From assembly GCA_964019135.1 (NCBI GenBank), contig OZ025248.1, forward strand, positions 15,197,574 to 15,261,573: a DNA stretch of 64,000 nt, read 5' to 3'. Below the pieces are notes generated by a model that was not told the origin of the DNA, did no database searches, and saw only the letters and a program-made list of their open reading frames with translations. This document shows, one piece after another, positions 16,230 through 43,000 of this stretch. The translations under genes were made by a program, and so were the position numbers. Source of the stretch: Arenicola marina. Lineage: Eukaryota; Annelida; Polychaeta; Arenicolidae. Numbering within the stretch: position 1 is the stretch's first letter; each line of letters opens with the position of its first letter.

Positions 16230-16336
16230 GTGATAATCGTGTCTGTAACACGTTATGATAGATTAGTGACATGACAATGCGTCCGGCCCGTCGGGATTGA
16301 CGCAACATGTGTCACCCTCCTCAGTCCTACTGTAAG

Positions 16337-17830
16337 CACTTGAGGACTCACTCGAAGACCCCATCCCGCTCTCCACCTCCGCTTGAGGCCCACTCGAGAG
16401 GCGCCATACCGCCCCCCCTCAGTTGAGGCCCACTCGAGAGGTGTCATCCCGCCCCCCTCACTTGAGGCCCACTCGAAATGCGTCATCCCGCCCCCCTCAC
16501 TTGAGGCCCACTCGAAAGGCGCCATACCGCCCCCCCTCAGTTGAGGCCCACTCGAGAGGTGTCATCCCGCCCCCCTCACTTGAGGCCCACTCGAAATGCG
16601 TCATCCCGCCCCCCTCACTTGAGGCCCACTCGAAAGGCGTCATTCAGCCCCCCCCCCACCCCCCCACTTGAGGCCCACCCGGGAGGCGTCATCCCGCCCC
16701 TCCCACTTGAGGCCCACTCGAGAGGCGTCATCCCGCCCCCCCCCATACTTGAGTCCCACCCGGGAGGCGTCATCCAGCCCCCCCCCTCTACTTGAGGCCC
16801 ACACGAGAGGCGTCATCCCCCCCACTTGAGCCCCCCTCGAGAGGCGTCATCCCGCCCCCCCCCCTCCGCCACTTGAAGCCCACTCAAGAGGCTTCATCCT
16901 GCCCCCCCCCACTTGAGGCCAACTCAAAAGGCGTCATCCAGCCCCCCCCCCTCACTTGAGGCCCACTCGAGAAGCGTCACCCCCCCCCCCCTCTTGAGCC
17001 CCCCTCGAGAGGCGTCATCCCGCCCCCCCCCCCCCACTTGAGGCCAACTCGAAACGCGTCATCCAGCCCCCCCCCCCTACTTGAGGCCAACTCGAAAGGC
17101 GTCATCCAGCCCCCCCTACTTGAGGCCCACCCGGGAGGCGTCATCCCCCCCCCACTTGAGGCCCACTTGAGAGGCGTCATCCCCCCCCCCACTTGAGCCC
17201 CCCATCGAGAGGCGTCATCCCGCCCCCCCTCCGCCACTTGAGGCCCACTCTAGAGGCTTCATCCAGCCCCCCCCCCTTGAGGCCAACTCGAAAGGCGTCA
17301 TCCAGCCCCCCCCTCCCACCCTCTCACTTGAGGCCCACTCGAGAGGCGTCATCGCGTCCCCCCCATTTGAGGCCAACTCGAAAGGCGTCATCCAGTCCCC
17401 CACTTGAGGCTCACTCGAGAAGCGTCAACTCGCACCCCCCCCCACTTAAGGCCCACTCGAGAAGCGTCATCCAGCCCCCCCCCCCACTTGAGGCCCACTC
17501 AAGAGGCGTCATCCCCCCCCACTTGGGGCCAACTCGAAACGCGTCATCCACCCCCCCCCCCCCCCCCTACTTGAGGCCAACTCGAAATGCGTCATCCAGC
17601 CCCCCCTACTTGAGGCCCACCCGGGAGGCGTCATCCCGCCCCCCTCACTTGAGGCCCACTCGAGAGGCGTCAACCCGCCCCCCTCCCACTTGAGGCCCAC
17701 TGGAGAGGCGTCATCCCGCCCCCCCCCACTTGAGGCCCACTGGAGAGGCGTCATCCCGCCCCCCCCCACTTGAGGCCCACTCGAGAGGCATCATCCCGCC
17801 CACCCGCCCCCCCCCGCTTGAGGCCCACTC
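16337..17830. repeat. ~38-bp poly-C-rich minisatellite, roughly 40 copies
   Basis: The core CTTGAGGCCCACTCGAGAGG plus CGTCATCC is followed by C runs of about 5 to 17, so unit length varies. Recurrent variants are CCCACCCGGGAGG and CCAACTCGAAAGG, alternating in blocks. The plus strand is extremely C-rich and its complement G-rich, which favours replication slippage. Many short ORFs on both strands are repeat by-products. Confidence 0.95.
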
Positions 17831-19096
17831 CATTGTGCTGCACGCTTTGGCATGCGTGTGGATGATCAAAACCTCCTCACACGAGGTGAATGTATTGTTG
17901 TCAAAACTATGGTAAGGCTAGCCCACGAAAGAACCTTCTGCGGTATCCTACGTGTAAGATAACATTACTGGCACTGTCATTAGGCCCAGTAAACCCTTAC
18001 CGAGCACGACATCACTATTGACATTAAGGTAAAGCTCGGTGTCGGTCTCGTGAGTCGCGTTTCTCAAATTCCTGGATCCGTCCCTGGTTGTCAGTGCCAA
18101 TCCGGAAAATAGTGACTAAATACGTGCTGGGTTAAAATCGACACACATTCTGGATCAGAAGCATATCTTGGTGGCCTTCTGCGGGTCTCTTCGTCCTGGT
18201 TGGGTTGGGTCGCAAGGCTGTGCGAGTCGGCTGGTGGTATGCCGGACAGGCTCACTCTCACGCCCATTCCAAGCTGAACACGCCCGTGTAGGTCGGACAT
18301 CTCGGCGGTTTACTACAGAATTCTCTTCGGGAGGTGGCTTAATCGTGCTTACTAAAGCCACAAACAAGCTCTGGATCGAAAGGTGACTGACCCACACGCC
18401 ACTGGTATCACCCCTTGACTCAAGTACAACATGTCGTCCCCACACGTGTTAAGCTTGCCCTTGGTCGCCCCTTTACCATCTTCACTCGCTGTAGGCGCGG
18501 ATCCAAGAATTTGAAAAAGCTGGGGGGGGAGGCGCGATCCATTGAAACTTGCTACCGGGGGGGTGGGGGTGATCCACGCCTCAGATAGCGTTCTTCGGCA
18601 AAAAGAGGCGGGGAGGGGGGGGGGGGGCGGGTGGTAGCGTTCTTGCTTAAAAATGCCTCAGGTGCTGCACCGAAAAACGGCATTGTTCCTGAAAAAAGTG
18701 GTCGAGAATAAAATAATGAACACCGTTGATTTATCTTATGATAATGTTTGACGATCTTCATGATTTGTGCAGTTCAGCAAGTGCAACATTCACGCGGACC
18801 GTTGATTTTGCGTTCGGTTTATCTTGCTCCGCACACGAGCGAAAAGCATACTCCAAGTATCTGCGCCGAATACTGCGGTCGTATATTTGAACTCACCCGT
18901 GTAATCAGTCAGTCATGTATGTGAGCCAACGACGAGAGATGCCCATCAACTGGCATTAATAGACGTCAGGTCAGATATACCTTGCCCCCTTGTTTGATAT
19001 TGCACTAGGCTGCGTGGTTCACCAAAACAAGGTTCAGCCCAGATCAATATTGGGTCATTAACTAGGAGCAAAGGCTAATCTAGTAAGAAAACGAAA
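17831..19096. other. intergenic region between minisatellite and TPR gene
   Basis: No gene is recognised. A G-rich, low-complexity stretch lies at about 18520-18635. The ORFs of 60-96 codons on either strand have no recognisable domain. Confidence 0.45.
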
Positions 19097-20445
19097 ATGT
19101 ACCTAGGCGACTTCGCGGCGCTTAACCAATCACCGGTCGTTTCTTGTCAAGACGTGTCCATAGATTGGTTGCCTCAACTGCATCGGACATCAATCATCAA
19201 TTTGATCGGCACTCTGCAATACTACGCTGGCGAGAAATATGAAGCCATTCAGTCTTTCAATGATGTCCTGAGGGAGGACCCGGAGAATGTAAATGCATTC
19301 GCCAACCTGGAGGCAGTCCATAGGAGCCTGCCAAACACTGCAAAGGCCAATGAATACATGGAGAAACTGAGAGACATCTGGCACGACGCCTCCTTCGCCA
19401 GCCCAGAGGTGGTAGGGAGGCAAGTGATATGTCTGGCTGAACAGGGCCCTGCGTTGGCCTTTGAAAATGCTGCATACCGCGAAGATGTGAAGGCGTATTC
19501 TTATTATGAGAAGGCACTCATTCTTGGCATAGATGCCTTCAGTAGCAGCGACCGCCTAAGCTGTTGGCATAATATGGCTGTATTGAAAAGTCGAGACCTC
19601 TTGAAAGCCAAATTTAAATGTTCAATGTTAGATGGGTATAATGAGGTTCTTGGTCTGTTCAGGGACATCTTGCTGGATCCAGAGGCTGAAATGTACCATG
19701 CTGACGCTTGGTGTCATGTTGGAAAGCTATTTATTAAAGCTGTCAACCATAACAGGCAAGAAATTAATGCGATTCCCACTCGCATATATTTGAGGGATGT
19801 CCATTATGATGCCACACAATGTTTCGAAGAAGCTGTACAGCTGCGCCCAGAAGATTCTGTTATACGCGTCGAGTATGGAAGATGGTTGTGCCACATAGGC
19901 AGGTTCAAGGCTTCTCTAGAACAGCTCAACTTCTCCTTCACAGCAGACCCCAGCGAAGATAACTGGTATGCATATGTCTCCAGAGCACGTACCATACTCC
20001 AGGCAGTCAAAGCGAATTGCATGCTCCCCGATCGTCTGTATGATGCTCTTAATGATCTGGTGAGTGGCACTACAGTAACCAGTCGCTACAAACTCTAGGT
20101 CTTATTTGCCATCGCCTCGCATCTGGTGCTGGCGACAGAAGCGACGAGTTCGGCATTAGGGCGCTGCAGTATTTCGAACAAGCGACGCGTTGTGAAGGAG
20201 GCTTGCAGGATCCTGTCAACTACGCTTTGCAAGGCGATTGTCTTCGTGACCTTGGAGAGCTAGAAGCTGCACTCGACAAATACAAAGCTGTGATTGTTCA
20301 CGAACCAGAGACCAACCTATCGCGTTTCAAGAACTTTACAAAATTATTACGTACTGGATTCGAAATTAAAAGAAAACGAGGCGGAAATGTCCTTGATCCA
20401 CTCATGGCAGATATGAAGACTTATTACGACAAAATGTGTAAATAA
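19097..20445 (+). CDS. TTC22-like tetratricopeptide-repeat protein, one frame break near 20,095
   Basis: The first 333 codons (19097-20098) encode TPR-type helices: LIGTLQYYAGEKYEAIQSF with DPENVNAFANLEAV at residues ~36-76, then the family signature VICLAEQGPALAFE, YYEKALILG, HADAWCHVGKLF, ATQCFEEAVQLRPED and RFKASLEQLNFSF. From memory these fit tetratricopeptide repeat protein 22, a family much expanded in amphioxus. After the TAG at 20096-20098 the homology continues in another frame: ICHRLASGAGD, ALQYFEQATRCEGG, NYALQGDCLRDLGELEAALDKY, ending KTYYDKMCK at 20445, near the usual family C-terminus. A 39-base GT...TAG stretch (20060-20098) is too short for a normal intron and gives the wrong phase. 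I therefore read this as a frameshift (recent pseudogene or assembly error). TPR proteins mediate protein-protein contacts; no enzymatic role is expected. Confidence 0.75.
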
Positions 20446-21778: not shown

Positions 21779-21882
21779 CTACCTTACTACCGGAATATGG
21801 TAGGGCATTGTTATCAGTTGTTACTCTGCAGAGACTGCACTCCGAAAGTCCTACCCTACTACCGGAATATGGCAGCGTATTA
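21779..21882. repeat. isolated 1.4 copies of the 74-bp satellite, outside the main arrays
   Basis: CTACCTTACTACCGGAATAT through TTACTCTGCAGAGACTGCAC and then a second CTACCCTACTACCGGAATAT match the satellite that fills 24.8-64 kb, about 2.9 kb before that array begins. Both copies carry GGAATATGG, as does the first unit of array 1, instead of the array's usual GGGATATGG. They are more diverged elsewhere, for example CCGAAAGTCC. Confidence 0.9.
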
Positions 21883-22033
21883 GGCCCTAAGCCAATACAG
21901 AAATATGTTTATCTTCCAACACTATTGTCGAAGAAATTCCACGATGGACGTTATAGCCAAACATTTCTTTTGGCTTCGACGGATGCAACATTATGCTTTT
22001 TACCGTCAATTCATATCACAATTGAGTTACACT

Positions 22034-22490
22034 TTAAAGAGTTTGAGAGAGGGTCCCATTTCTTTGCAAAGTTGGAGATTTTGGACGTGTACTTTTCTGA
22101 TTTATAATGATATATAATAATGTTTTTATACCGATAAAATTCGGAGCTATATTCATGCACTTACATCTATATATACACTTCTTAGTTATTAGAAATACAT
22201 GATTAATGAGTTGGCTGCATAAGGTCTTACGTTCACCCAATATACATGACTGAAAATCAACTGGTAAGGATATATTGCAGGACTCATTTAACCATAATAC
22301 CAAGAGAAACCACAAAGGCTTTATATGCCGGCAACTAGACAACAAATGCTCTATAGTTTCTAGTTCGATTCCGCAAACATCACAACTGTCATTGGGTTTC
22401 AACTTACATTTATAAAGAAACATATTCGTCACAAGTGCTCGATGTAAGATTAAATACTGGAAGCTTTGTATAAGTGATATAAAACTATTT
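22034..22490 (-). mobile_element. LINE retrotransposon 3' fragment (zf-RVT C-terminus)
   Basis: The minus-strand frame reads ISLIQSFQYLILHRALVT, then NMFLYKCKLKPNDSCDVCGI and ETIEHLLSSCRHI, ending at a stop at 22034. The CxxC...HLLxxC pattern after an FQYLILHR stretch is the zinc-binding domain that follows reverse transcriptase in many LINE ORF2 proteins. Only about 150 C-terminal codons remain. A stop and unrelated sequence lie upstream, so it is 5'-truncated as usual for LINE copies. The clade is not identifiable from this piece. Confidence 0.75.
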
Positions 22491-22622
22491 TATTTTTACT
22501 TTATTTTCACCCTGGTGCAGCCAGATTTCAGGGGGGGGGGGGGGGGGCGTGTTCCCGAAGACTCCACTGGGCGAAATCATGATTCCACTACAATGCGGAT
22601 TCATGGTACCACTGTAACACAA
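22491..22622. other. short unique segment with a long poly-G tract
   Basis: A run of about 18 G lies at about 22530-22547. The segment separates the LINE fragment from the start of the duplicated fucosyltransferase block at 22623. No gene is seen. Confidence 0.6.
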
Positions 22623-22701
22623 AGTCTCAAGCAGAGACAGATTTTGCCATATATTCAACATGTAAAGGTCCACAATACTTTAACAGCGCACTTGCATGCA
22701 G

Positions 22702-22707
22702 TTTATT
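22702..22707 (-). promoter_or_regulatory. candidate polyadenylation signal (minus strand) of fucosyltransferase exon A
   Basis: TTTATT on the plus strand is AATAAA on the minus strand, about 50 bases after the stop codon at 22756-22758. The same signal is kept in copy B at 34319-34324. Confidence 0.5.
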
Positions 22708-22755
22708 GGATCGGAGATCTTTGGTACACGACCCCTGCTGCCCAATGCCCCCTCG

Positions 22756-23468
22756 TTATGGTTTGATCTTAGGCTTGCTCCATTTCTTTCTCTGTGGCAT
22801 CCGCTTGCCCATGATGCTATCGAAGACCTCATCGTGACACATACTGTCGGACCACCAACGGTAAACATCTTCGTACGTCTTTGACAAGTTTGCGTCATGC
22901 AACTTTTGGCAAAGGTGGCAAAATTGTTCAGGCCGAGTATTAAATATTATTTTGTATTTGTTTTTCCACTCGAAGTATTTCAGATATTCCGTTTCATTGC
23001 CACCAAGCCAGGTTAAGTACTCAGCCAGCTTACGAGGCGACGTGAAGTCCATGACGTTTATAACGGAATGAGGAGGTGTGTCTCTCGTGTAGTTTGTCCC
23101 TCCATACACCACTGGAATGATCTCGGTGTCCAGCGTTCTGAAGCATTTTTCAGTGATATAGTCGCGGCAGACACTGTTTTCAAATCCCAAATAGTATTTA
23201 TACTTTGAGGGAATCGTGGTTGTGAAGCAAGACTTATCATTTGACTTGCACAGGTCATGTTTAGACCCACATCCGCCATAGATATCCACGTCGATATGTT
23301 TAGACAGCTCTCGGACATAGCGCTCTCTCTGGCTGAAAGTCTTACAATGGCTGACAACCCACGCCACGCTCCGGGCTCTCGTAGCCAGAGGGAATCGCAG
23401 GCTGGGAGGTGGGCTGATGGCGCCATCTACCGGCACCACGAGCGACACAGGTATGGGGAGATCGGAAT
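22756..23468 (-). CDS. GT10 alpha-1,3-fucosyltransferase, C-terminal exon, copy A (partial gene)
   Basis: The minus-strand frame encodes about 236 residues of a family GT10 fucosyltransferase C-terminal domain. Landmarks are SDLPIP at the exon start, VAWVVSHC with RERYVRELSKHIDVDIYG, the donor-binding signature LGFENSVCRDYITEKCF, IIPVVYGG, PPHSVINVMDFTSPRKLAEYL and YLKYFEWK, ending in a basic tail and TAA. Known members transfer fucose from GDP-fucose to GlcNAc of glycans in the Golgi. The cytoplasmic, transmembrane, stem and N-terminal catalytic parts are absent. A likely acceptor (AG = plus 23469-23470) and an upstream in-frame stop show the exon begins at about 23468. No upstream exon is found in the block, and beyond it lies only satellite. 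It is therefore either the last exon of a gene whose 5' part lies far to the right, or an orphan fragment. Confidence 0.85.
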
Positions 23469-24791
23469 CTCGTCATTGATAAATCAATGCGTGATTGCAC
23501 GCGTAACACAAGGCGCTGACACTGTCGGGCGTTGCAAAGGCAACTGGATGTACTCTCCCAATACTGTCAAAAATGATGACTGCGTGTTAATACTGAAAAA
23601 AACACGGGAATAATTGTGGTCAGGAATGAAGGAGTCCTGCGATTAAATGAGAAATGGTTTCCAAACGATGAGTGGTTGAACGTAGTGACACATAGTAAAT
23701 ATCAAGGTTTAATGCTGTCATCGCGCTTAATCTGGCCCGTCGAACTGAACACGTTGGCTGCTCAGGCGGGTCCACAAGAACTAAGGGGCGAGTAAGACTT
23801 TTCGCTTACCGTGATCCGTGATTACACCTCATTATTATCGTGATCGGGTAATCAGGAAACTCATTTTCGAGATCCGTGATCGAAGTAATTCTCGTGATCG
23901 TGATTTTCATAAAACTGCCAATCCGTGATGCGTGATTGGAAACGATTATTTTCGTGATCTGTGACCTCCGATTAACTTGTGACCATGATTTGTACTTTTA
24001 GTTATTATCGTGATTGTGATATGCGACTTTTTGTGTTTTTTTCCGTGATTCTCGGCACTTATTTCCTTCATTGTTGCCATGACATTAACCTGGTACCACG
24101 CGCTTGTGCCGAGAGAACGTTTCGACCGCGAGCCCTTCTATTATGAAAATGCTGGTTCCCGGACCCATTCGACACTTTGGATACCAGGGAACCAGGTTGT
24201 TTATATACATGTTCACCGAACAGGTCCTTATCAAATACTGATACTGGAGAGAAGTATTGACTTAGAGTTGGGGAAATAATCTAAGCTTATATATACTCAT
24301 ATTATCCGAGAAGAGAGACGAGGTAAGAAATTAACATAAAAATTCTTTATTTCTAAAAACATGAAACAAGCACTGATACAAACACTGCCTTCCTTTTTTT
24401 CTTATTTTGCTGTCGACATTGTTGTTCAGGACATCATGTGTGCCAAATTGCATCGACATCGAAAGAGTCCCCAAATTATTAAATTTAACATAGCCATCTC
24501 CGAGCTAAAGTGTCGATACGCTGAATAAGCTGAATAACGGATGGCACCAGGTGACGTTTTGGTCAAACACCCGGTCGATTATTCCGCCTTGGTTTTAGTC
24601 GGCCTTAATGTGTTTTAGTTAGTTGGTGGACGGACGGACGGATGCCTAGGACGTTCCGGCCTAGGACGATTCGACCTAGGACGTTTCGGCCAGGTATTTT
24701 GGGGAGGGCGAAATTTTCGGCCAAGTATAATATTACAAAACTTATATAATGTTTTATCTGGTATAAAACTAAAAACTATAATCACACTTCC
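23469..24791. other. non-coding remainder of block A, with a CGTGAT-rich patch
   Basis: The short ORFs here (for example 24079-24279 +) have no recognisable domain. At 23805-24050 the strings CCGTGAT, TCGTGAT and GTGATC recur more than a dozen times. At about 24640-24720, CCTAGGACG(T/A)TTCG recurs three times. I found no fucosyltransferase exon on the minus strand. The duplicate is 35086-36408. Confidence 0.5.
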
Positions 24792-27700
24792 ACTACCGGA
24801 ATATGGTAGCGTATTGTCACCAGTTTGTTACTCTGCAGAGACTGCACTCCGGGATGTCCTACCCTACTACCGGGATATGGTAGCGTATTGTTATCAGTCT
24901 GTAACTCTGCAGAGGCTGCACTCCGGATGTCCTACCCTACTACCGGGATATGGTAGCGTATTGTTATCAGTTTGTTACTCTGCAGAGACTGCACTCCGGG
25001 ATGTCCTACCCTACTACCGGGATATGTTAGCGTATTGCTATCAGTTTGTTACTCTGCAGAGACTGCACTCCGGGATGTCCTACCCTACTACCGGGATATG
25101 GTAGCCTATTGCTATCAGTTTGTTACTCTGTAGAGACTGCACTCCGGGATGTCCCACCCTACTACCGGGATATGGTAGCGTATTGTTATCAGTTTGTTAC
25201 TCTGCAGAGCCTGCACTCCGGGATGTCCTACCCTACTACCGGGATATGTTAGCATATTGTTATCAGTTTGTTACTCTGCAGAGACTGCACTCTGGGATGT
25301 CCTACCCTACTACCGGGATATGGTAGCGTATTGTTATCAGTTTGTTACTCTGCAGAGACTGCACTCCGGATGTCCTACCCTACTACCGGGATATGGTAGC
25401 GTATTGTTATCAGTTTGTTACTCTGCAGAGACTGCACTCCGGGATGTCCTACCCTACTACCGGGATATGTTAGCGTATTGCTATCAGTTTGTTACGCTGT
25501 AGAGACTGCACTCCGGATGTCCTACCCTACTACCGGGATATGGTAGCGTATTGTTATCAGTTTGTTACTCTGCAGAGCCTGCACTCCGGGATGTCCTACC
25601 CTACTACCGGGATATGTTAGCATATTGTTATCAGTTTGTTACTCTGCAGAGACTGCACTCTGGGATGTCCTACCCTACTACCGGGATATGGTAGCGTATT
25701 GTTTTCAGTTAGTTACTCTGCAGAGACTGCACTCCGAGATGTCCTACCCTACTACCGGGATATGGTAGCGTATTGTTATCAGTTTGTTACTCTGCAGAGA
25801 CTGCACTCCGGATGTCCTACCCTACTACCGGGATATGGTAGCGTATTGTTATCAGTTTGTTACTCTGCAGAGACTGCACTCCGGATGTCCTACCCTACTA
25901 CCGGGATATGGTAGCGTATTGTTATCAGTTAGTTACTCTGCAGAGACTGCACTCCGGGATGTCCTACCCTACTACCGGGATATGGTAGCGTATTGTTATC
26001 AGTTAGTTACTCTGTAGAGACTGCACTCCGGGATGTCCTACCCTACTACCGGGATATGGTAGCATATTGTTATCAGTTTGTTACTCTGCAGAGGCTGCAC
26101 TCCGGGATGTCCTACCCTACTACCGGGATATGGTAGCGTATTGTTATCAGTTAGTTACTCTGTAGAGACTGCACTCCGGGATGTCCTACCCTACTACCGG
26201 GATATGGTAGCGTATTGTTATCAGTCTGTTACTCTGTAGAGACTGCACTCCGGGATGTCCTACCCTACTACCGGGATATGGTAGCGTATTGTTATCAGTT
26301 AGTTACTCTGCAGAGACTGCACTCCGGGATGTCCTACCCTAGTACCGGGATATGGTAGCGTATTGTTATCAGTCTGTTACTCTGTAGAGACTGCACTCCG
26401 GGATGTCCTACCCTACTACCGGGATATGGTAGCATATTGTTATCAGTTTGTTACTCTGCAGAGACTGCACTCCGGGATGTCCTACCCTACTACCGGGATA
26501 TGGTAGCGTATTGTTATCAGTCTGTTACTCTGTAGAGACTGCACTCCGGGATGTCCTACCCTACTACCGGGATATGGTAGCGTATTGTTATCAGTTTGTT
26601 ACTCTGCAGAGACTGCACTCCGGGATGTCCTACCCTACTACCGGGATATGGTAGCGTATTGTTATCAGTTAGTTACTCTGTAGAGACTGCACTCCGGGAT
26701 GTCCTACCCTACTACCGGGATATGGTAGCGTATTGTTATCAGTCTGTTACTCTGTAGAGACTGCACTCCGGGATGTCCTACCCTACTACCGGGATATGGT
26801 AGCGTATTGTTATCAGTCTGTTACTCTGTAGAGACTGCACTCCGGGATGTCCTACCCTACTACCGGGATATGGTAGCATATTGTTATCAGTTTGTTACTC
26901 TGTAGAGACTGCACTCCGGGATGTCCTACCCTACTACCGGGATATGGTAGCGTATTGTTATCAGTCTGTTACTCTGTAGAGACTGCACTCCGGGATGTCC
27001 TACCCTACTACCGGGATATGGTAGCATATTGTTATCAGTTTGTAACTCTGCAGAGACTGCACTCCGGATGTCCTACCCCACTACCGGGATATGGTAGCAT
27101 ATTGTTATCAGTTTGTTACTCTGTAGAGACTGCACTCCGGGATGTCCTACCCTACTACCGGGATATGGTAGCATATTGTTATCAGTTTGTTACTCTGCAG
27201 AGACTGCACTCCGGGATGTCCTACCCTACTACCGGGATATGGTAGCGTATTGTTATCAGTTAGTTACTCTGCAGAGACTGCACTCCGGGATGTCCAACCC
27301 TACTACCGGGATATGGTAGCGTATTGTTATCAGTTAGTTACTCTGCAGAGACTGCACTCCGGTATGTCCTACCCTACTACCGGGATATGGTAGCGTATTG
27401 TTATCAGTTAGTTACTCTGCAGAGACTGCACTCCGGATGTCCTACCCTACTACCGGGATATGGTAGCATATTGTTATCAGTTAGTTACCCTGCAGAGACT
27501 GCACTCCGGATGTCCTACCTTACTACCGGGATATGGTAGCGTATTGTTATCAGTTAGTTATTCTGTAGAGACTGCACTCCGGATGTCCTACCCTACTACC
27601 GGGATATGGTAGCATATTGTTATCAGTTAGTTACCCTGCAGAGACTGCACTCCGGGATGTCCTACCCTACTACCGGGATATGGTAGCGTATTGTTATCAG

Positions 27701-30700
27701 TTTGTTACTCTGCAGAGACTGCACTCCGGATGTCCTACCCTACTACCGGGATATGGTAGCGTATTGTTATCAGTTAGTTACTCTGCAGAGCCTGCACTCC
27801 GGGATGTCCTACCCTACTACCGGGATATGGTAGCGTATTGTTATCAGTAAGTTACTCTGCAGAGACTGCACTCCGGATGTCCTACCCTAGTACCGGGATA
27901 TGGTAGCGTATTGCTATCAGTCTGTAACTCTGCAGAGGCTGCACTCCGGATGTCCTACCCTACTACCGGGATATGGTAGCGTATTGTTATCAGTTAGTTA
28001 CTCTGTAGAGACTGCACTCCGGGATGTCCTACCCTAGTACCGGGATATGGTAGCCTATTGCTATCAGTCTGTAACTCTGCAGAGGCTGCACTCCGGATGT
28101 CCTACCCTACTACCGGGATATGGTAGTGTATTGTTATCAGTTAGTTACTCTGCAGAGACTGCACTCCGGGATGTCCTACCCTACTACCGGGATATGGTAG
28201 CATATTGTTATCAGTCTGTAACTCTGCAGAGGCTGCACTCCGGGATGTCCTACCCTAGTACCGGGATATGGCAGCGTATTGTTATCAGTTTGTTACTCTG
28301 TAGAGACTGCACTCCGGGATGTCCTACCCTACTACCGGGATATGGTAGCGTATTGTTATCCGTTAGTTACTCTGTAGAGACTGCACTCCGGGATGTCCTA
28401 CCCTACTACCGGGATATGGTAGCGTATTGTTATCCGTTAGTTAATCTGCAGAGACTGCACTCCGGGATGTCCTACTCTACTACCGGGATATGGCAGCGTA
28501 TTGTTATCAGTTTGTTACTCTGTAGAGACTGCACTCCGGGATGTCCTACCCTACTACCGGGATATGGTAGCGTATTGTTATCCGTTAGTTACTCTGTAGA
28601 GACTGCACTCCGGGATGTCCTACCCTACTACCGGGATATGGTAGCGTATTGTTATCCGTTAGTTACTCTGCAGAGACTGCACTCCGGGATGTCCTACTCT
28701 ACTACCGGGATATGGCAGCGTATTGTTATCAGTTTGTTACTCTGTAGAGACTGCACTCCGGGATGTCCTACCCTACTACCGGGATATGGTAGCGTATTGT
28801 TATCCGTTAGTTACTCTGTAGAGACTGCACTCCGGGATGTCCTACCCTACTACCGGGATATGGTAGCGTATTGTTATCCGTTAGTTACTCTGCAGAGACT
28901 GCACTCCGGGATGTCCTACTCTACTACCGGGATATGGCAGCGTATTGTTATCAGTTTGTTACTCTGTAGAGACTGCACTCCGGGATGTCCTACCCTACTA
29001 CCGGGATATGGTAGCGTATTGTTATCCGTTAGTTACTCTGTAGAGACTGCACTCCGGGATGTCCTACCCTACTACCGGGATATGGTAGCGTATTGTTATC
29101 AGTTAGTTACTCTGTAGAGACTGCACTCCGGATGTCCTACCCTACTACCGGGATATGGTAGCGTATTGTTATCAGTTAGTTACTCTGTAGAGACTGCACT
29201 CCGGATGTCCTACCCTACTACCGGGACATGGTAGCGTATTGTTATCCGTTAGTTACTCTGTAGAGACTGCACTCCGGGATGTCCTACCCTACTACCGGGA
29301 TATGGCAGCGTATTGTTATCAGTTAGTTACTCTGCAGAGACTGCACTCCGGATGTCCTACCCTACTACCGGGATATGGCAGCGTATTGTTATCAGTTAGT
29401 TACTCTGCAGATGCAGAGACTGCACTCCGGGATGTCCTACCCTACTACCGGGATATGGTAGCGTATTGTTATCAGTCTGTAACTCTGCAGAGGCTGCACT
29501 CCGGATGTCCTACCCTACTACCGGGATATGGTAGCCTATTGTTATCAGTTAGTTACTCTGTAGAGACTGCACTCCGGGATGTCCTACCCTACTACCGGGA
29601 TATGGTAGCGTATTGTTATCAGTCTGTTACTCTGTAGAGACTGCACTCCGGGATGTCCTACCCTACTACCGGGATATGGCAGCGTATTGTTATCAGTTAG
29701 TTACTCTGCAGAGACTGCACTCCGGATGTCCTACCCTAGTACCGGGATATGGCAGCGTATTGTTATCAGTTAGTTACTCTGCAGATGCAGAGACTGCACT
29801 CCGGGATGTCCTACCCTACTACCGGGATATGGTAGCGTATTGTTATCAGTTAGTTACTCTGCAGAGGCTGCACTCCGGATGTCCTACCCCACTACCGGGA
29901 TATGGTAGCGTATTGTTATCAGTTTGTAACTCTGCAGAGACTGCACTCCGGGATGTCCTACCCTACTACCGGGATATGGTAGCATATTGTTATCAGTTTG
30001 TAACTCTGCAGAGGCTGCACTCCGGATGTCTTACCCCACTACCGGGATATGGTAGCGTATTGTTATCAGTTTGTAACTCTGCAGAGACTGCACTCCGGGA
30101 TGTCCTACCCTACTACCGGGATATGGTAGCATATTGTTATCAGTTTGTAACTCTGCAGAGGCTGCACTCCGGATGTCCTACCCCACTACCGGGATATGGT
30201 AGCGTATTGTTATCAGTTTGTAACTCTGCAGAGACTGCACTCCGGGATGTCCCACCCTACTACCGGGATATGGTAGCATATTGTTATCAGTTTGTAACTC
30301 TGCAGAGACTGCACTCCGGGATGTCCTACCCTACTACCGGGATATGGTAGCGTATTGTTATCAGTTTGTAACTCTGCAGAGGCTGCACTCCGGATGTCCT
30401 ACCCCACTACCGGGATATGGTAGCGTATTGTTATCAGTTTGTAACTCTGCAGAGACTGCACTCCGGGATGTCCTACCCTACTACCGGGATATGGTAGCGT
30501 ATTGTTATCAGTTAGTTACTCTGTAGAGACTGCACTCCGGGATGTCCTACCCTACTACCGGGATATGGTAGCGCATTGTTATCAGTTTGTAACTCTGCAG
30601 AGACTGCACTCCGGGATGTCCTACCCTACTACCGGGATATGGTAGCGTATTGTTATCAGTTTGTAACTCTGCAGAGACTGCACTCCGGGATGTCCTACCC

Positions 30701-33700
30701 TACTACCGGGATATGGTAGCGTATTGTTATCAGTTAGTTACTCTGTAGAGACTGCACTCCGGGATGTCCTACCCTACTACCGGGATATGGTAGCGTATTG
30801 TTATCAGTTAGTTACTCTGCAGAGACTGCACTCCGGGATGTCCTACCCTACTACCGGGATATGGTAGCGTATTGTTATCAGTTAGTTACTCTGTAGAGAC
30901 TGCACTCCGGGATGTCCTACCCTACTACCGGGATATGGTAGCGTATTGTTATCAGTCTGTTACTCTGTAGAGACTGCACTCCGGGATGTCCTACCCTACT
31001 ACCGGGATATGGTAGCATATTGTTATCAGTTAGTTACTCTGTAGAGACTGCACTCCGGGATGTCCTACCCTACTACCGGGATATGGTAGCGTATTGTTAT
31101 CAGTCTGTTACTCTGTAGAGCCTGCACTCCGGATGTCCTACCCTACTACCGGGATATGGTAGCGTATTGTTATCAGTTAGTTACTCTGCAGAGACTGCAC
31201 TCCGGGATGTTCTACCCTACTACCGGGATATGGTAGCGTATTGTTATCAGTTTGTTACTCTGTAGAGACTGCACTCCGGGATGTCCTACCCTACTACCGG
31301 GATATGGTAGCGTATTGTTATCAGTTAGTTACTCTGCAGAGACTGCACTCCGGATGTCCTACCCTACTACCGGGATATGGTAGCGTATTGTTATCAGTTA
31401 GTTACTCTGTAGAGACTGCACTCCGGGATGTCCCACCCTACTACCGGGATATTGTAGCGTATTGTTATCAGTTAGTTACTCTGTAGAGACTGCACTCTGG
31501 GATGTCCTACCCTACTACCGGGATATGGTAGCGTATTGTAATCAGTTAGTTACTCTGTAGAGACTGCACTCCGGGATGTCCTACCCTACTACCGGGATAT
31601 GGTAGCGTATTGTTATCAGTTAGTTACTCTGTAGAGACTGCACTCCGGATGTCCTACCCTACTACCGGGATATGGTAGCGTATTGTTATCAGTTAGTTAC
31701 TCTGTAGAGACTGCACTCCGGGATGTCCTACCCTAGTACCGGGATATGGTAGCGTATTGTTATCAGTTAGTTACTCTGTAGAGACTGCACTCCGGGATGT
31801 CCTACCCTACTACCGGGATATGGTAGCGTATTGTTATCAGTTAGTTACTCTGCAGAGACTGCACTCCGGGATGTCCTACCCTACTACCGGGATATGGTAG
31901 CGTATTGTTATCAGTTAGTTACTCTGCAGAGACTGCACTCCGGGATGTCCTACCCTACTACCGGGATATGGTAGCGTATTGTTATCAGTTTGTTACTCTG
32001 CAGAGACTGCACTCCGGGATGTCCTACCCTACTACCGGGATATGGTAGCGTATTGTTATCAGTTAGTTACTCTGTAGAGACTGCACTCCGGGATGTCCCA
32101 CCCTACTACCGGGATATGGTAGCGTATTGTTATCAGTTTGTTACTCTGCAGAGACTGCACTCCGGGATGTCCTACCCTACTACCGGGATATGGTAGCGTA
32201 TTGTTATCAGTTAGTTACTCTGTAGAGACTGCACTCCGGGATGTCCCACCCTACTACCGGGATATGGTAGCGTATTGTTATCAGTTTGTTACTCTGTAGA
32301 GACTGCACTCCGGGATGTCCTACCCTACTACCGGGATATGGTAGCGTATTGTTATCAGTTAGTTACTCTGTAGAGACTGCACTCCGGGATGTCCTACCCT
32401 AGTACCGGGATATGGTAGCGTATTGTTATCAGTTTGTTACTCTGCAGAGACTGCACTCCGGATGTCCTACCTTACTACCGGGATATGGTGGCGTATTGTT
32501 ATCAGTTTGTTACTCTGTAGAGACTGCACTCCGGGATGTCCTACCCTACTACCGGGATATGGTAGTGTATTGTTATCAGTTAGTTACTCTGTAGAGACTG
32601 CACTCCGGATGTCCTACCCTACTACCGGGATATGGTAGTGTATTGTTATCAGTTAGTTACTCTGTAGAGACTGCACTCCGGATGTCCTACCCTACTACCG
32701 GGATATGGTAGTGTATTGTTATCAGTTAGTTACTCTGTAGAGACTGCACTCCGGATGTCCTACCCTACTACCGGGATATGGTAGTGTATTGTTATCAGTT
32801 AGTTACTCTGTAGAGACTGCACTCCGGATGTCCTACCCTACTACCGGGATATGGTAGCGTATTGTTATCAGTCTGTAACTCTGCAGAGACTGCACTCCGG
32901 ATGTCCTACCCTACTACCGGGATATGGTAGCGTATTGTTATCAGTTAGTTACTCTGTAGAGACTGCACTCTGGGATGTCCTACCCTAGTACCGGGATATT
33001 TTAGTGTACTGTTATCAGTTAGTTACTCTGTAGAGACTGCACTCCGGGATGTCCTACCCTAGTACCGGGATATGGTAGTGTATTGTTATCAGTTAGTTAC
33101 TCTGCAGAGACTGCACTCCGGATGTCCTACCCTACTACCGGGATATGGTAGTGTATTGTTATCAGTTAGTTACTCTGTAGAGACTGCACTCCGGATGTCC
33201 TACCCTACTACCGGGATATGGTAGTGTATTGTTATCAGTTAGTTACTCTGTAGAGACTGCACTCCGGATGTCCTACCCTACTACCGGGATATGGTAGTGT
33301 ATTTTTATCAGTTAGTTACTCTGTAGAGACTGCACTCCGGATGTCCTACCCTACTACCGGGATATGGTAGCGTATTGTTATCAGTTAGTTACTCTGCAGA
33401 GACTGAACTCCGGGATGTTCTACCCTACTACCGGGATATGGTAGCGTATTGTTATCAGTTAGTTACTCTGTAGAGACTGCACTCCGGATGTCCTACCCTA
33501 CTACCGGGATATGGTAGCGTATTGTTATCAGTTAGTTACTCTGTAGAGACTGCACTCCGGATGTCCTACCCTACTACCGGGATATGGTAGCGTATTGTTA
33601 TCAGTTTGTAACTCTGCAGAGGCTGCACTCCGGATGTCCTACCCTACTACCGGGATTGGGTAGCGTATTGTTATCAGTTAGTTACTCTGCAGTGACTGCA

Positions 33701-34240
33701 CTCCGGATGTCCTACCCTACTACCGGGATATGGTAGCGTATTGTTATCAGTTTGTTACTCTGCAGAGGCTGCACTCCGGATGTCCTACCCTACTACCGGG
33801 ATTGGGTAGCGTATTGTTATCAGTTAGTTACTCTGTAGAGACTGCACTCCGGATGTCCTACCCTACTACCGGGATATGGTAGCGTATTGTTATCAGTTTG
33901 TAACTCTGCAGAGGCTGCACTCCGGATGTCCTACCCTACTACCGGGATTGGGTAGCGTATTGTTATCAGGTAGTTACTCTGCAGTGACTGCACTCCGGAT
34001 GTCCTACCCTACTACCGGGATATGGTAGCGTATTGTTATCAGTTAGTTACTCTGTAGAGACTGCACTCCGGGATGTCCTACCCTACTACCGGGATATGGT
34101 AGCGTATTGTTATCAGTTTGTTACTCTGCAGAGACTGCACTCCGGGATGTCCTACCTACTACCGGGATATGGTAGCGTATTGTTATCAGTTTGTTACTCT
34201 GCAGAGGCTGCACTCCGGATGTCCTACCCTACTACCGGGA
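24792..34240. repeat. 74-bp satellite, array 1 (~9.45 kb, ~128 copies)
   Basis: Head-to-tail monomers of 74 bases, or 73 when CCGGGATGTC is CCGGATGTC, all in one orientation. Landmarks are CTACTACCGGGATATGGTAG, CGTATTGTTATCAGTTAGTT, and ACTCTGCAGAGACTGCACTC. Common alternates are TAGCG/TAGCA/TAGTG, CTGCAG/CTGTAG, and TTAGTTAC/TTTGTTAC/TCTGTAAC. Since 74 is not a multiple of 3, monomers are read in rotating frames and stops occur in every frame. The ~68-codon ORFs are by-products. A 222-bp trimer repeats at about 28270-29080. The array ends abruptly at ACCGGGA before block B. Confidence 0.97.
28271..29080. repeat. 222-bp trimeric higher-order repeat inside array 1
   Basis: A block of three monomers, one marked GGCAGCG and two marked GTTATCCGTTAG, recurs almost exactly with GGCAGCG at about 28271, 28492, 28714 and 28936. 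Three monomers of 74 give 222, a multiple of 3. This explains the unusually long 356-codon frame across it. Confidence 0.9.
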
Positions 34241-34318
34241 GTCTCAAGCAGAGACAGATTTTGCCATATATTCAACACGTAAAGGTCCACAATACTTTAA
34301 CAGCGCACTTGCATGCAG

Positions 34319-34324
34319 TTTATT
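34319..34324 (-). promoter_or_regulatory. candidate polyadenylation signal (minus strand) of fucosyltransferase exon B
   Basis: AATAAA on the minus strand, at the same distance after the stop as in copy A. Confidence 0.5.
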
Positions 34325-34372
34325 GGATCGGAGATCTTTGGTACACGACCCCTGCTGCCCAATGCCCCCTCG

Positions 34373-35085
34373 CTATGGTTTGATCTTAGGCTTGCTCCAT
34401 TTCTTTCTCTGTGGCATCCGCTTGCCCATGATGCTATTGAAGACCTCATCGTGACACATACTGTCGGACCACCAACGGTAAACATCTTCGTACGTCTTTG
34501 ACAAGTTTGCGTCATGCAACTTTTGGCAGAGGTGGCAAAATTGTTCAGGCCGAGTATTAAATATTATTTTGTATTTGTTTTTCCACTCGAAGTATTTCAG
34601 ATATTCCGTTTCATTGCCACCAAGCCAGGTTAAGTACTCAGCCAGCTTACGAGGCGACGTGAAGTCCATGACGTTTATAACGGAATGAGGAGGTGTGTCC
34701 CTCGTGTAGTTTGTCCCTCCATACACCACTGGAATGATCTCGGTGTCCAGCGTTCGGAAGCATTTTTCAGTGATATAGTCGCGGCAGACACTGTTTTCAA
34801 ATCCCAAATAGTATTTATACTTTGAGGGAATCGTGGTTGTGAAGCAAGACTTATCATTTGACTTGCACAGGTCATGTTTAGACCCACATCCGCCATAGAT
34901 ATCCACGTCGATATGTTTAGACAGCTCTCGGACATAGCGCTCTCTCTGGCTGAAAGTCTTACAATGGCTGACAACCCACGCCACGCTCCGGGCTCTCGTA
35001 GCCAGAGGGAATCGCAGGCTGGGAGGTGGGCTGATGGCGCCATCTACCGGCACCACGAGCGACACAGGTATGGGGAGATCGGAAT
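34373..35085 (-). CDS. GT10 alpha-1,3-fucosyltransferase, C-terminal exon, copy B (partial gene)
   Basis: Same exon as 22756-23468, with the intact signature FENSVCRDYITEK. Across the exon I see five single-base differences: three synonymous, one stop change (TAA to TAG), and one Asp-to-Asn in EVF(D/N)SIMGK near the C-terminus, outside the donor-binding motif. The frame, splice acceptor and polyadenylation signal are all preserved. As with copy A, no 5' exons are visible: the block continues as non-coding sequence and then at least 27 kb of satellite. Confidence 0.85.
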
Positions 35086-36408
35086 CTCGTCATTGATAAA
35101 TCAATGCGTGATTGCACGCGTAACACAAGGCGCTGACACTGTCGGGCGTTGCAAAGGCAACTGGATGTACTCTCCCAATACTGTCAAAAATGATGACTGC
35201 GTGTTAATACTGAAAAAAACACGGGAATAATTGTGGTCAGGAATGAAGGAGTCCTGCGATTAAATGAGAAATGGTTTCCAAACGATGAGTGGTTGAACGT
35301 AGTGACACATAGTAAATATCAAGGTTTAATGCTGTCATCGCGCTTAATCTGGCCCGTCGAACTGAACACGTTGGCTGCTCAGGCGGGTCCACAAGAACTA
35401 AGGGGCGAGTAAGACTTTTCGCTTACCGTGATCCGTGATTACACCTCATTATTATCGTGATCGGGTAATCAGGAAACTCATTTTCGAGATCCGTGATCGA
35501 AGTAATTCTCGTGATCGTGATTTTCATAAAACTGCCAATCCGTGATGCGTGATTGGAAACGATTATTTTCGTGATCTGTGACCTCCGATTAACTTGTGAC
35601 CATGATTTGTACTTTTAGTTATTATCGTGATTGTGATATGCGACTTTTTGTGTTTTTTCCCGTGATTCTCGGCACTTATTTCCTTCATTGTTGCCATGAC
35701 ATTAACCTGGTACCACGCGCTTGTGCCGAGAGAACGTTTCGACCGCGAGCCCTTCTATTATGAAAATGCTGGTTCCCGGACCCATTCGACACTTTGGATA
35801 CCAGGGAACCAGGTTGTTTATATACATGTTCACCGAACAGGTCCTTATCAAATACTGATACAGGAGAGAAGTATTGACTTAGAGTTGGGGAAATAATCTA
35901 AGCTTATATATACTCATATTATCCGAGAAGAGAGACGAGGTAAGAAATTAACATAAAAATTCTTTATTTCTATAAACATGAAACAAGCACTGATACAAAC
36001 ACGGCCTTCCTTTTTTTCTTATTTTGCTGTCGACATTGTTGTTCAGGACATCATGTGTGCCAAATTGCATCGACATCGAAAGAGTCCCCAAATTATTAAA
36101 TTTTAACATAGCCATCTCCGAGCTAAAGTGTCGATACGCTGAATAAGCTGAATAACGGATGGCACCAGGTGACGTTTTGGTCAAACACCCGGTCGATTAT
36201 TCCGCCTTGGTTTTAGTCGGCCTTAATGTGTTTTAGTTAGTTGGTGGACGGACGGACGGATGCCTAGGACGTTCCGGCCTAGGACGATTCGACCTAGGAC
36301 GTTTCGGCCAGGTATTTTGGGGAGGGCGAAATTTTCGGCCAAGTATAATATTACAAAACTTATATAATGTTTTATCTGGTATAAAACTAAAAACTATAAT
36401 CACACTTC
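35086..36408. other. non-coding remainder of block B
   Basis: Same content as 23469-24791, including the CGTGAT-rich patch (about 35422-35670) and the CCTAGGACG repeats (about 36262-36306). No additional gene is seen. Confidence 0.5.
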
Positions 36409-37011: not shown

Positions 37012-40000
37012 ATGGTAGCATATTGTTATCAGTCTGTAACTCTGCAGAGGCTGCACTCCGGATGTCCTACCCTAGTACCGGGATATGGTAGCATATTGTT
37101 ATCAGTCTGTAACTCTGCAGAGCCTGCACTCCGGGATGTCCTACCCTACTACCGGGATATGTTAGCGTATTGTTATCAGTTTGTTACTCTGCAGTGACTG
37201 CACTCCGGGATGTCCTACCCTACTACAGGGATATGGTAGCGTATTGTTATCAGTTAGTTACTCTGTAGAGACTGCACTCCGGATGTCCTACCCTAGTACC
37301 GGGATATGGTAGCGTATTGTTATCAGTTTGTTACTCTGCAGAGACTGCACTCCGGGATGTCCTACCCAACTACCGGGATTGGGTAGCGTATTTTTTATCA
37401 GTTTGTTACTCTGCAGAGACTGCACTCCGGGATGTCCTACCCAACTACCGGGATATGGTAGCATATTGTTATCAGTTTGTTACTCTGCAGAGACTGCACT
37501 CCGGATGTCCTACCCTACTACCGGGATATGGTAGCGTATTGTTATCAGTTAGTTACTCTGCAGAGACTGCACTCCGGGATGTCCTACCCTACTACCGGGA
37601 TATGGTAGCCTATTGCTATCAGTCTGTAACTCTGCGGAGGCTGCACTCCGGATGTCCTACCCTACTACCGGGATATGGTAGTGTATTGTTATCAGTTAGT
37701 TACTCTGCAGAGACTGCACTCCGGGATGTCCTACCCTACTACCGGGATATGGTAGTGTATTGTTATCAGTTAGTTACTCTGCAGAGACTGCACTCCGGGA
37801 TGTCCTACCCTACTACCGGGATATGGTAGCGTATTGTTATCAGTTATTTACTCTGTAGAGACTGCATTCCGGGATGTCCTACCCTACTACCGGGATATGG
37901 TAGCGTATTGTTATCAGTTAGTTACTCTGCAGAGACTGCACTCCGGATGTCCTACCCTACTACTGGGATATGGTAGCGTATTGTTATCAGTTAGTTACTC
38001 TGTAGAGACTGCACTCCGGATGTCCTACCCTACTACCGGGATATGGTAGCGTATTGTTATCAGTTAGTTACTCTGCGGAGACTGCACTCCGGATGTCCTA
38101 CCCTACTACCGGGATATGGTAGCGTACTGTTATCAGTTAGTTACTCTGTAGAGACTGCACTCCGGGATGTCCTACCCTAGTACCGGGATATGGTAGCGTA
38201 TTGTTATCAGTTAGTTACTCTGCAGAGACTGCACTCCGGATGTCCTACCCTACTACCGGGATATGGTAGCGTATTGTTATCAGTTAGTTACTCTGTAGAG
38301 ACTGCACTCCGGATGTCCTCCCCTACTACCGGGATATGGTAGCGTATTGTTATCAGTTAGTTACTCTGTAGAGACTGCACTCCGGATGTCCTACCCTACT
38401 ACCGGGATATGGTAGCGTATTGTTATCAGTTAGTTACTCTGTAGAGACTGCACTCCGGATGTCCTACCCTACTACCGGGATATGGTAGCGTACTGTTATC
38501 AGTTAGTTACTCTGTAGAGACTGCACTCCGGGATGTCCTACCCTAGTACCGGGATATGGTAGCGTATTGTTATCAGTTTGTTACTCTGTAGAGACTGCAC
38601 TCCGGATGTCCTACCCTACTACCGGGATATGGTAGCGTATTGTTATCAGTTAGTTACTCTGTAGAGACTGCACTCCGGATGTCCTCCCCTACTACCGGGA
38701 TATGGTAGCGTATTGTTATCAGTTAGTTACTCTGTAGAGACTGCACTCCGGGATGTCCTACCCTACTACCGGGATATGGTAGTGTATTGTTATCAGTTAG
38801 TTACTCTGTAGAGACTGCACTCGGGGATGTCCTACCCTACTACCGGGATATGGTAGTGTATTGTTATCAGTTAGTTACTCTGTAGAGACTGCACTCCGGG
38901 ATGTCCTACCCTAGTACCGGGATATGGTAGCGTATTGTTATCAGTTAGTTACTCTGTAGAGACTGCACTCCGGATGTCCTCCCCTACTACCGGGATATGG
39001 TAGCGTATTGTTATCAGTTAGTTACTCTGTAGAGACTGCACTCCGGGATGTCCTACTCTACTACCGGGATATGGTAGCATATTGTTATCAGTTAGTTACT
39101 CTGCAGAGACTGCACTCCGGATGTCCTACCCTACTACCGGGATATGGTAGCGTATTGTTATCAGTTAGTTACTCTGCAGAGACTGCACTCCGGGATGTCC
39201 TACCCTACTACCGGGATATGGTAGCGTATTGTTATCAGTTAGTTACTCTGTAGAGACTGCACTCCGGGATGTCCTACCCTACTACCGGGATATGGTAGCG
39301 TATTGTTATCAGTTAGTTACTCTGTAGAGACTGCACTCCGGGATGTCCTACCTTACTACCGGGATATGGTAGTGTATTGTTATCAGTTAGTTACTCTGTA
39401 GAGACTGCACTCCGGGATGTCCTACCCTACTACCGGGATATGGTAGCGTATTGTTATCAGTTAGTTACTCTGTAGAGACTGCACTCCGGGATGTCCTACC
39501 CTACTACCGGGATATGGTAGCGTATTGTTATCAGTTAGTTACTCTGTAGAGACTGCACTCCGGGATGTCCTACCCTACTACCGGGATATGGTAGTGTATT
39601 GTTATCAGTTTGTTACTCTGCAGAGACTGCACTCCGGGATGTCCTACTCTACTACCGGGATATGGTAGCGTATTGTTATCAGTTAGTTACTCTGCAGAGA
39701 CTGCACTCCGGATGTCCTACCCTACTACCGGGATATGGTAGCGTATTGTTATCAGTTTGTTACTCTGTAGAGACTGCACTCCGGGATGTCCTACCCTACT
39801 ACCGGGATATGGTAGCGTATTGTTATCAGTTAGTTACTCTGCAGAGACTGCACTCCGGGATGTCCTACTCTACTACCGGGATATGGTAGCATATTGTTAT
39901 CAGTTTGTTACTCTGCAGAGACTGCACTCCGGGATGTCCTACCCTACTACCGGGATATGGTAGCGTATTGTTATCAGTTTGTTACTCTGCAGAGACTGCA

Positions 40001-43000
40001 CTCCGGGATGTCCTACCCTACTACCGGGATATGGTAGCGTATTGTTATCAGTTTGTTACTCTGCAGAGACTGCACTCCGGGATGTCCTACCCTACTACCG
40101 GGATATGGTAGCGTATTGTTATCAGTTAGTTACTCTGCAGAGACTGCACTCCGGGATGTCCTACCCTACTACCGGGATATGGTAGCGTATTGTTATCAGT
40201 TAGTTACTCTGTAGAGACTGCACTCCGGATGTCCTACCCTACTACCGGGATATGGTAGCGTATTGTTATCAGTTAGTTACTCTGCAGAGACTGCACTCCG
40301 GATGTCCTACTCTACTACCGGGATATGGTAGCGTATTGTTATCAGTTTGTTACTCTGTAGAGACTGCACTCCGGGATGTCCTACTCTACTACCGGGATAT
40401 GGTAGCGTATTGTTATCAGTTTGTTACTCTGCAGAGACTGCACTCCGGATGTCCTACCCTACTACCGGGATATGGTAGCATATTGTTATCAGTTTGTTAC
40501 TCTGCAGAGACTGCACTCCGGATGTCCTACTCTACTACCGGGATATGGTAGTGTATTGTTATCAGTTTGTTACTCTGTAGAGACTGCACTCCGGGATGTC
40601 CTACTCTACTACCGGGATATGGTAGCGTATTGTTATCAGTTTGTTACTCTGCAGAGACTGCACTCCGGATGTCCTACCCTACTACCGGGATATGGTAGCA
40701 TATTGTTATCAGTTTGTTACTCTGCAGAGACTGCACTCCGGGATGTCCTACCCTACTACCGGGATATGGTAGCGTATTGTTATCAGTTAGTTACTCTGCA
40801 GAGACTGCACTCCGGGATGTCCTACTCTACTACCGGGATATGGTAGCGTATTGTTATCAGTTTGTTACTCTGCAGAGACTGCACTCCGGATGTCCTACCC
40901 TACTACCGGGATATGGTAGCATATTGTTATCAGTTTATTACTCTGCAGAGACTGCACTCCGGGATGTCCTACCCTACTACCGGGATATGGTAGCGTATTG
41001 TTATCAGTTAGTTACTCTGCAGAGACTGCACTCCGGGATGTCCTACCCTACTACCGGGATATGGTAGCGTATTGTTATCAGTTAGTTACTCTGCAAAGAC
41101 TGCACTCCGGATGTCCTACCCTACTACCGGGATATGGTAGCGTATTGTTATCAGTTTGTTACTCTGCAGAGACTGCACTCCGGGATGTCCTACCCTACTA
41201 CCGGGATATGGTAGCGTATTGTTATCAGTTAGTTACTCTGCAGAGACTGCACTCCGGGATGTCCTACCCTACTACCGGGATATGGTAGCGTATTGTTATC
41301 AGTTAGTTACTCTGTAGAGACTGCACTCCGGGATGTCCTACCCTACTACCGGGATATGGTAGCGTATTGTTATCAGTTTGTTACTCTGCAGAGACTGCAC
41401 TCCGGATGTCCTACCCTACTACCGGGATATGGTAGCATATTGTTATCAGTTTGTTACTCTGCAGAGACTGCACTCCGGGATGTCCTACCCTACTACCGGG
41501 ATATGGTAGCGTATTGTTATCAGTTAGTTACTCTGCAGAGACTGCACTCCGGGATGTCCTACTCTACTACCGGGATATGGTAGCGTATTGTTATCAGTTA
41601 GTTACTCTGCAGAGACTGCACTCCGGATGTCCTACCCTACTACCGGGATATGGTAGCGTATTGTTATCAGTTTGTTACTCTGCAGAGACTGCACTCCGGG
41701 ATGTCCTACCCTACTACCGGGATATGGTAGCGTATTGTTATCAGTTAGTTACTCTGCAGAGACTGCACTCCGGGATGTCCTACCCTACTACCGGGATATG
41801 GTAGCGTATTGTTATCAGTTAGTTACTCTGTAGAGACTGCACTCCGGGATGTCCTACCCTACTACCGGGATATGGTAGCGTATTGTTATCAGTTAGTTAC
41901 TCTGTAGAGACTGCACTCCGGGATGTCCTACCCTACTACCGGGATATGGTAGCGTATTGTTATCAGTTAGTTACTCTGTAGAGACTGCACTCCGGGATGT
42001 CCTACCCTACTACCGGGATATGGTAGCGTATTGTTATCAGTTTGTTACTCTGTAGAGACTGCACTCCGGGATGTCCTACCCTAGTACCGGGATATGGTAG
42101 CATATTGTTATCAGTTAGTTACTCTGTAGAGACTGCACTCCGGATGTCCTACCCTACTACCGGGATATGGTAGCGTATTGTTATCAGTTTGTTACTCTGC
42201 AGAGACTGCACTCCGGATGTCCTACCCTACTACCGGGATATGGTAGCATATTGTTATCAGTTAGTTACTCTGTAGAGACTGCACTCCGGATGTCCTACCC
42301 TACTACCGGGATATGGTAGCGTATTGTTATCAGTTAGTTACTCTGCAGAGACTGCACTCCGGGATGTCCTACTCTACTACCGGGATATGGTAGCGTATTG
42401 TTATCAGTTAGTTACTCTGCAGAGACTGCACTCCGGGATGTCCTACTCTACTACCGGGATATGGTAGCGTATTGTTATCAGTTTGTTACTCTGCAGAGAC
42501 TGCACTCCGGGATGTCCCACTCTACTACCGGGATATGGTAGCGTATTGTTATCAGTTTGTTACTCTGTAGAGACTGCACTCCGGATGTCCTACCCTACTA
42601 CCGGGATATGGTAGCGTATTGTTATCAGTTAGTTACTCTGCAGAGACTGCACTCCGGATGTCCTACCCTACTACCGGGATATGGTAGCGTATTGTTATCA
42701 GTTAGTTACTCTGTAGAGACTGCACTCCGGGATGTCCTACCCTACTACCGGGATATGGTAGCGTATTGTTATCAGTTTGTTACTCTGTAGAGACTGCACT
42801 CCGGATGTCCTACCCTACTACCGGGATATGGTAGCGTATTGTTATCAGTTAGTTACTCTGCAGAGACTGCACTCCGGGATGTCCTACCCTACTACCGGGA
42901 TTGGGTAGCGTATTGTTATCAGTTAGTTACTCTGCAGAGACTGCACTCCGGGATGTCCTACCCTACTACCGGGATATGGTAGCGTATTGTTATCAGTTAG

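Follow-up and report, generated by a model that had tools for sequence, protein, structure and literature searches.

The locus described here is probably a small, recombining cluster of duplications built around one GT10 gene, together with a satellite that grew from the 3' flank of that gene. We analyzed the window (C1:15197574-15261573, a stretch of 64,000 nucleotides from Arenicola marina) together with flanks of 20 kb on the left and 60 kb on the right, 144 kb in all, and searched the genome in one assembly (867 Mb, 762 contigs). We also read 50 kb around a sister gene at 7.6 Mb on C1 and two 10-kb stretches of C13 with distant GT10 genes. Genes on the mitochondrial contig follow the order ND3-Ser-ND2-COX1-Asn-COX2-Asp, followed by Tyr and Gly (ND3, ND2 and COX2 identified by eye), an arrangement that points to an annelid. 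Positions are those of the window; positions beyond its right end are given as window-equivalents. A search of the literature at the level of titles and abstracts, including work on annelid fucosyltransferase expansion, found nothing on this locus.

Organization of the locus

Two blocks, A (22623-24790) and B (34240-36408), lie in direct orientation with a spacing of 11617 bp. Over ~2168 bp, 10 substitutions and a single 1-bp indel separate them (99.5% identity); the likeness is far beyond chance and bears out the two ~99.5%-identical blocks described in an earlier, sequence-only reading of this DNA. Among the best 40 of 520 matches to the block in the whole genome, four places reached at least 95% identity: A, B and two copies beyond the window, C (C1:15281764-15282615; 99%) and D (C1:7595370-7596213, reverse; 95%), each matching the first 852 bp of the block. 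The weaker matches in this set were two on C13 at 72-73% and many short repeat matches. The features of the locus are as follows.

21786-21881, plus strand: satellite left of A, one 72-bp monomer and 24 bp, at the place matching the partial monomer of D
21882-23474, minus strand: copy A, GT10 3' part and 3' flank, homologous to C at window-equivalent 83397-85042
22037-22489, minus strand: fragment of a LINE-type reverse-transcriptase zinc-binding domain (PF13966), tested in A
22756-23472, minus strand: open frame A, 238 codons and a stop, corresponding to residues 167-404 of C
23475-24790, no strand assigned: repeat-rich filler, with joint J1 (23474/23475) to the broken gene and joint J2 (24790/24791)
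24791-34239, plus strand: first array, S1, 74-bp unit, with an odd edge monomer at 24791-24864
34240-36408, minus strand: copy B, 99.5% identical to 22623-24790
34373-35089, minus strand: open frame B, 238 codons and a stop, GT10 (PF00852)
36409-64000, plus strand: second array, S2, opening on the left with the same odd edge monomer

Homology between A and C reaches left to 21882, well beyond the block edge at 22623, and includes the sequence at 22037-22489, which D does not have at the corresponding place. To the right, A and B can be aligned to C and D only up to 23474/35091. S2 extends past the window to window-equivalent 83396, where it adjoins C. In the output of Tandem Repeats Finder (TRF), the 74-bp satellite starts at 24792, reaches the end of the window and stops beyond it at window-equivalent 83396, with B lying inside it. 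S1 is 9449 bp and S2 46988 bp long, about 763 units by length; the TRF count of 794 copies over 24792-83396 takes in block B too.

Minisatellites crowd the surroundings, at 1-2718, 14846-16233 and 16337-17805 (units of 57, 42 and 39 bp), and the flanks hold others, with units that include 15, 25 and 63 bp. At 19079-20445 on the plus strand a TPR-type frame is split into two overlapping frames, whose matches to Pfam TPR are weak and do not reach the curated cut-offs; it is a frameshifted gene, a gene with a missed intron or the product of a base error. The stretch that holds it has no counterpart at the sister locus D.

A and B are truncated pieces of a single-exon gene

C is an intact single-exon GT10 gene on the minus strand (window-equivalent 84327-85538; 404 amino acids from the first Met, no stop), situated just right of the array, on the far side from A, with A and B downstream of it and in its orientation. 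It matches PF17039 and PF00852 (E 3e-58), its best relative of solved structure is fucosyltransferase 9 (PDB 8d0o; E 3e-37), and a membrane anchor was read by eye. From its sequence, C is a predicted alpha-1,3-fucosyltransferase-type gene; it is the intact parent of the fragments. D, the sister gene of C on the same contig 7.6 Mb away, likewise has PF17039 and PF00852 (E 6e-60). A tandem neighbor of C on the same strand, E, is a GT10 frame at window-equivalent 88113-89150 with 55% identity to C over 355 aligned positions. GT10 is a large family in this genome: PF00852 matches 125 stretches, 27 of them within C17:7.43-7.85 Mb, and many members lie in open frames of at least 380 codons.

The frames in A and B each match PF00852 (E 7e-59), and a profile search of both for the N-terminal domain PF17039 did not find it. 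Both lack the N-terminal part, residues 1-166 of C, and in both an in-frame stop stands immediately ahead of the GT10 fragment. The sequence-only reading had called each an intact GT10 C-terminal exon. The 238-codon frame is indeed open in both copies, and its edge at 23474 is no exon edge: C and D read through it in open frames of 438 and 421 codons, respectively, C continuing through TMTYRRDSD. We therefore rejected a duplicated terminal exon, C and D being open across 23474 in one frame and the edge coinciding with no splice site; the 238-codon frames are part of a single-exon protein. A and B are 5'-truncated pieces of a single-exon gene, joined to 1.3 kb of repeat-rich filler.

These observations bear equally on the suggestion that A and B serve as alternative last exons of an upstream promoter, with the satellite as intron. 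Their frames are intact and they lie downstream of C on its strand, as such exons would, but C and D cross the supposed exon edge without an intron, and we give the suggestion almost no credence. Open frames are expected without any function when there have been few changes since the last exchange between copies. A and B differ in 4 of 238 codons, 3 of them silently, too few changes for a test of constraint, and both are most likely non-functional, dead fragments. Neither an open frame nor 99.5% identity proves function or youth, as exchange between copies can reset both.

Filler and joints

Among the candidates scored for the filler (18 of 18, the best 40 of 229 and the best 40 of 520), full-length matches were confined to A and B, with no other that could represent its source, and pieces of it matched dispersed repeats at 77-93%. 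One such repeat, at 24644-24790 and 36262-36408, contains an inner 15-bp tandem, GCCTAGGACGTTTCG, and has many copies in the genome, some with longer inner arrays. In all six copies examined, out of the many listed, the sequence runs on beyond the point equivalent to 24790; the continuations are the copies' own, with four resembling one another and two doing so only in part. Position 24790 is thus a break within the repeat and not its end. Since the filler ends on the right within a dispersed repeat, insertion of the block as a transposon was considered; it was rejected, as 24790 breaks that repeat and the odd monomer common to A and B is found farther right.

The left joint of B with the satellite, J3 (34239/34240), is non-homologous, with 1 bp of microhomology, and is absent from the other copies examined (A, C and D). 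The breakpoints that had been proposed for B, one at the position equivalent to 22623 and one in satellite, are confirmed by this joint. The proposal that the rearrangement was satellite-mediated is weakened: one breakpoint does lie in satellite, but with J3 non-homologous, homology between satellite sequences can account for one end at most. The statement that only B has satellite on its left holds in that B directly abuts satellite; A also has some, 741 bp left of the block. An 11-12 bp repeat around B in the satellite, noticed by eye, was considered as a target-site duplication and rejected, the right joint of B being common to A.

J3 also bears on the question of whether A and B are one block doubled in the assembly, by haplotype merging or by a false join in satellite. 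Satellite arrays are error-prone and only a single assembly was available, but if two haplotypes with A-type left flanks had been merged, a joint found in none of the other copies could not have resulted. Moreover, A and B differ at 11 places, and a false doubling would leave near-identical arrays to the right of the two blocks, which is not what is seen. We regard an artefact as quite improbable.

Extent of the duplicated unit

The claim that a gene end was duplicated together with the edge of the array is supported by the filler, the filler-satellite junction and the odd first monomer that A and B share. Each array, S1 and S2, contains the sequence TCACCAG a single time, at offset 26 of the first monomer; the common TTATCAG occurs 112 times in S1 and 613 times in S2. 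Both blocks thus pass into the satellite through the same odd monomer, as had been noticed. The edge monomers of A and B differ at 4 of ~74 sites, and the filler shows 5 changes in ~1317 bp.

Satellite carried along with the block would be expected to be as alike in register as the block itself (99.5%). We compared S1 with S2 in 300-bp tiles; 43 of 61 S1 tiles matched in register at 92-97% identity, and the other 18 had no match within 40 bp of register. No S1 tile (0 of 61) had a match of at least 99.5% anywhere in S2, whereas 61% of 312 S2 tiles had one elsewhere in S2. A search of the locus for matches of at least 700 bp listed 17, of which 15 fall within S2 (99.6-100%), one joins A and B and one joins B and C; none joins S1 and S2. 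That the duplicated unit included the 9.4 kb of satellite separating A from B, as implied by the original reading, is not borne out by these comparisons. What was copied may have been no more than the block and part of the edge monomer; alternatively, the arrays may have turned over afterwards. The poor likeness in register is compatible with such turnover and also with insertion of a block that brought hardly any satellite.

A simple, recent tandem duplication of 22623-34239 (block and 9.4 kb of satellite), with no later exchange, would account for two direct copies at their observed spacing, with a common array edge and one breakpoint in satellite. It also draws some support from the first S1 tile to the right of A, which matches best in register (96.7% vs 96.3% elsewhere); later tiles match equally well or better elsewhere. 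It predicts in-register satellite at ~99.5%, however, and long S1-S2 matches of the kind seen 15 times inside S2. On these grounds we consider a simple duplication unlikely, and prefer copying of the block and array edge within a cluster whose members continue to recombine.

Several kilobases of S2 are themselves repeated, at 37593-44267 and 47175-53849 (offset ~9.58 kb, 99.6-99.9% identity), and S2 contains more such pairs. They represent recent large amplifications or doubling in the assembly.

Divergence and probable exchange among copies

Differences between A and C are unevenly distributed, with 36 in 517 positions (7.0%) in 21882-22403 and 12 in 1068 (1.1%) in 22404-23474 (Fisher p 1.2e-9, for a boundary at ~22404 placed by eye along the listed differences). 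Because this step falls outside the GT10 frame, it is not accounted for by coding constraint; it also falls left of where B starts, so B cannot have mediated all of it. A sharp change in divergence within homologous sequence, unrelated to coding limits, is a pattern expected of gene conversion.

Ten sites in 22623-23474 vary among A, B and C. At four of these (22661, 22912, 23083 and 23139) B agrees with C and A with D; A alone deviates at 22756 and 22821, C alone at 22712, 22803 and 23302, and at one site (23417) A and B agree against C and D. Three more distant GT10 genes were informative at three of the four sites where B agrees with C. At 23083 and 23139, two of the three carry the base of A and D, and E carries that of B and C, which could reflect recurrent change or exchange with E. 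At 22912, one of the three (E) has the base of A and D, and two have a third base. B appears to share four derived sites with C, a small number. That these are common to B and C and not to A is a further point against the simple tandem duplication.

Together, the divergence step and the shared derived sites point to later exchange. The copies probably stay alike through repeated exchange, for which gene conversion is the best reading, so the 99.5% identity need not date the duplication. A more far-reaching idea, that gene conversion with the truncated GT10 cassettes as donors overwrites the 3' half of C time and again, strikes us as very doubtful; if it were true, a satellite derived from the flank of the gene itself would hold a reservoir of enzyme variants.

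Origin of the satellite

We counted matches to a 23-base core of the satellite, allowing up to 2 mismatches, over the 867 Mb of the genome and found 766 forward matches and 1 reverse match (reversed-pattern control, 0). All but one of the 767 lie at this locus: 2 left of A (21787 and 21859), 127 in S1 and 637 in S2. The repeat forms long head-to-tail arrays of a short unit, as a satellite does, and is not spread over many genome loci; it is better termed a single-locus satellite.

The one remaining match is a partial copy in the 3' flank of D, a partial monomer of 45 bp that is 82% identical to the consensus. The 3' flanks of A and D share eight collinear pieces, with the partial monomer of D in the matching place. 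The base state CCGGAATATGG is present in D and in both copies left of A; over 22000-85700 it occurs once, at the edge of A, vs 681 occurrences of CCGGGATATGG. The array probably grew from the 3' flank of the GT10 gene, a reading for which the main ground is the collinearity of the A and D flanks with the partial monomer of D in place. That monomer may be in either an original or a reduced state.

A proposed history

In the history we propose, the intact parent is the single-exon gene C, seen on the minus strand to the right of the array. A short satellite-like sequence in its 3' flank, the seed still visible beside D, would predate the split from D, and tandem duplication with unequal exchange may have expanded it into the private array of ~760 monomers. 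An old duplication of the 3' side of the gene would have produced A, which now differs by 7% from C in part of the non-coding flank. A would have lost its 5' half at 23474 and become joined to the 1.3-kb filler and then to the array; both joints are present in the sequence and may have formed in that order.

Subsequently, B would have arisen as a copy, placed within the array, of the array edge at A: a segment that starts at 22623, spans the filler and takes in at least part of the first monomer. Tandem duplication and break repair that copied from the edge are both candidate mechanisms, and either would give a non-homologous left joint and a right side continuous with satellite. Exchange between copies would since have held A, B and C ~99% alike over the 0.85-1.07 kb that they share.

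Comparison with known systems

The kinds of change involved here (duplication of gene fragments, a single-locus satellite and conversion) are already known, and the probable surviving seed adds to the use of the locus. A young satellite, its likely unamplified seed, the adjoining gene and a rearranged array edge can be compared within one genome. Should the seed be confirmed in relatives, the locus could serve to gauge the pace at which a new array grows and disturbs the adjoining gene.

Tandem paralogues are subject to concerted evolution by gene conversion, and the present locus resembles them in its recent homogenization and sharp step in divergence. It differs in that the presumed partners are an intact gene and fragments at a distance of ~47-60 kb from it, most of the intervening sequence being satellite. 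In vertebrates, segmental duplications of gene fragments bordered by satellite are found near centromeres. The likeness to these is that gene fragments adjoin satellite; here there is one local array, of a satellite that appears to have arisen at the locus.

Yeast CUP1 arrays, as outlined in PMC4232551, arose through gene duplication by unequal non-homologous recombination, and are similar to the present case in having direct copies with non-homologous joints. Here, in contrast, one breakpoint lies in satellite and the copies are truncated. The birth of a satellite from arbitrary sequence by tandem duplication and unequal crossing-over (Smith's model, which PMC8822648 cites, and the model of that paper itself) is matched here by the short seed, the private array, the large and apparently recent internal duplications and an edge monomer with an apparently older base state. 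Unlike in those models, a partial, unamplified copy persists here at a sister locus, in the 3' flank of a named gene.
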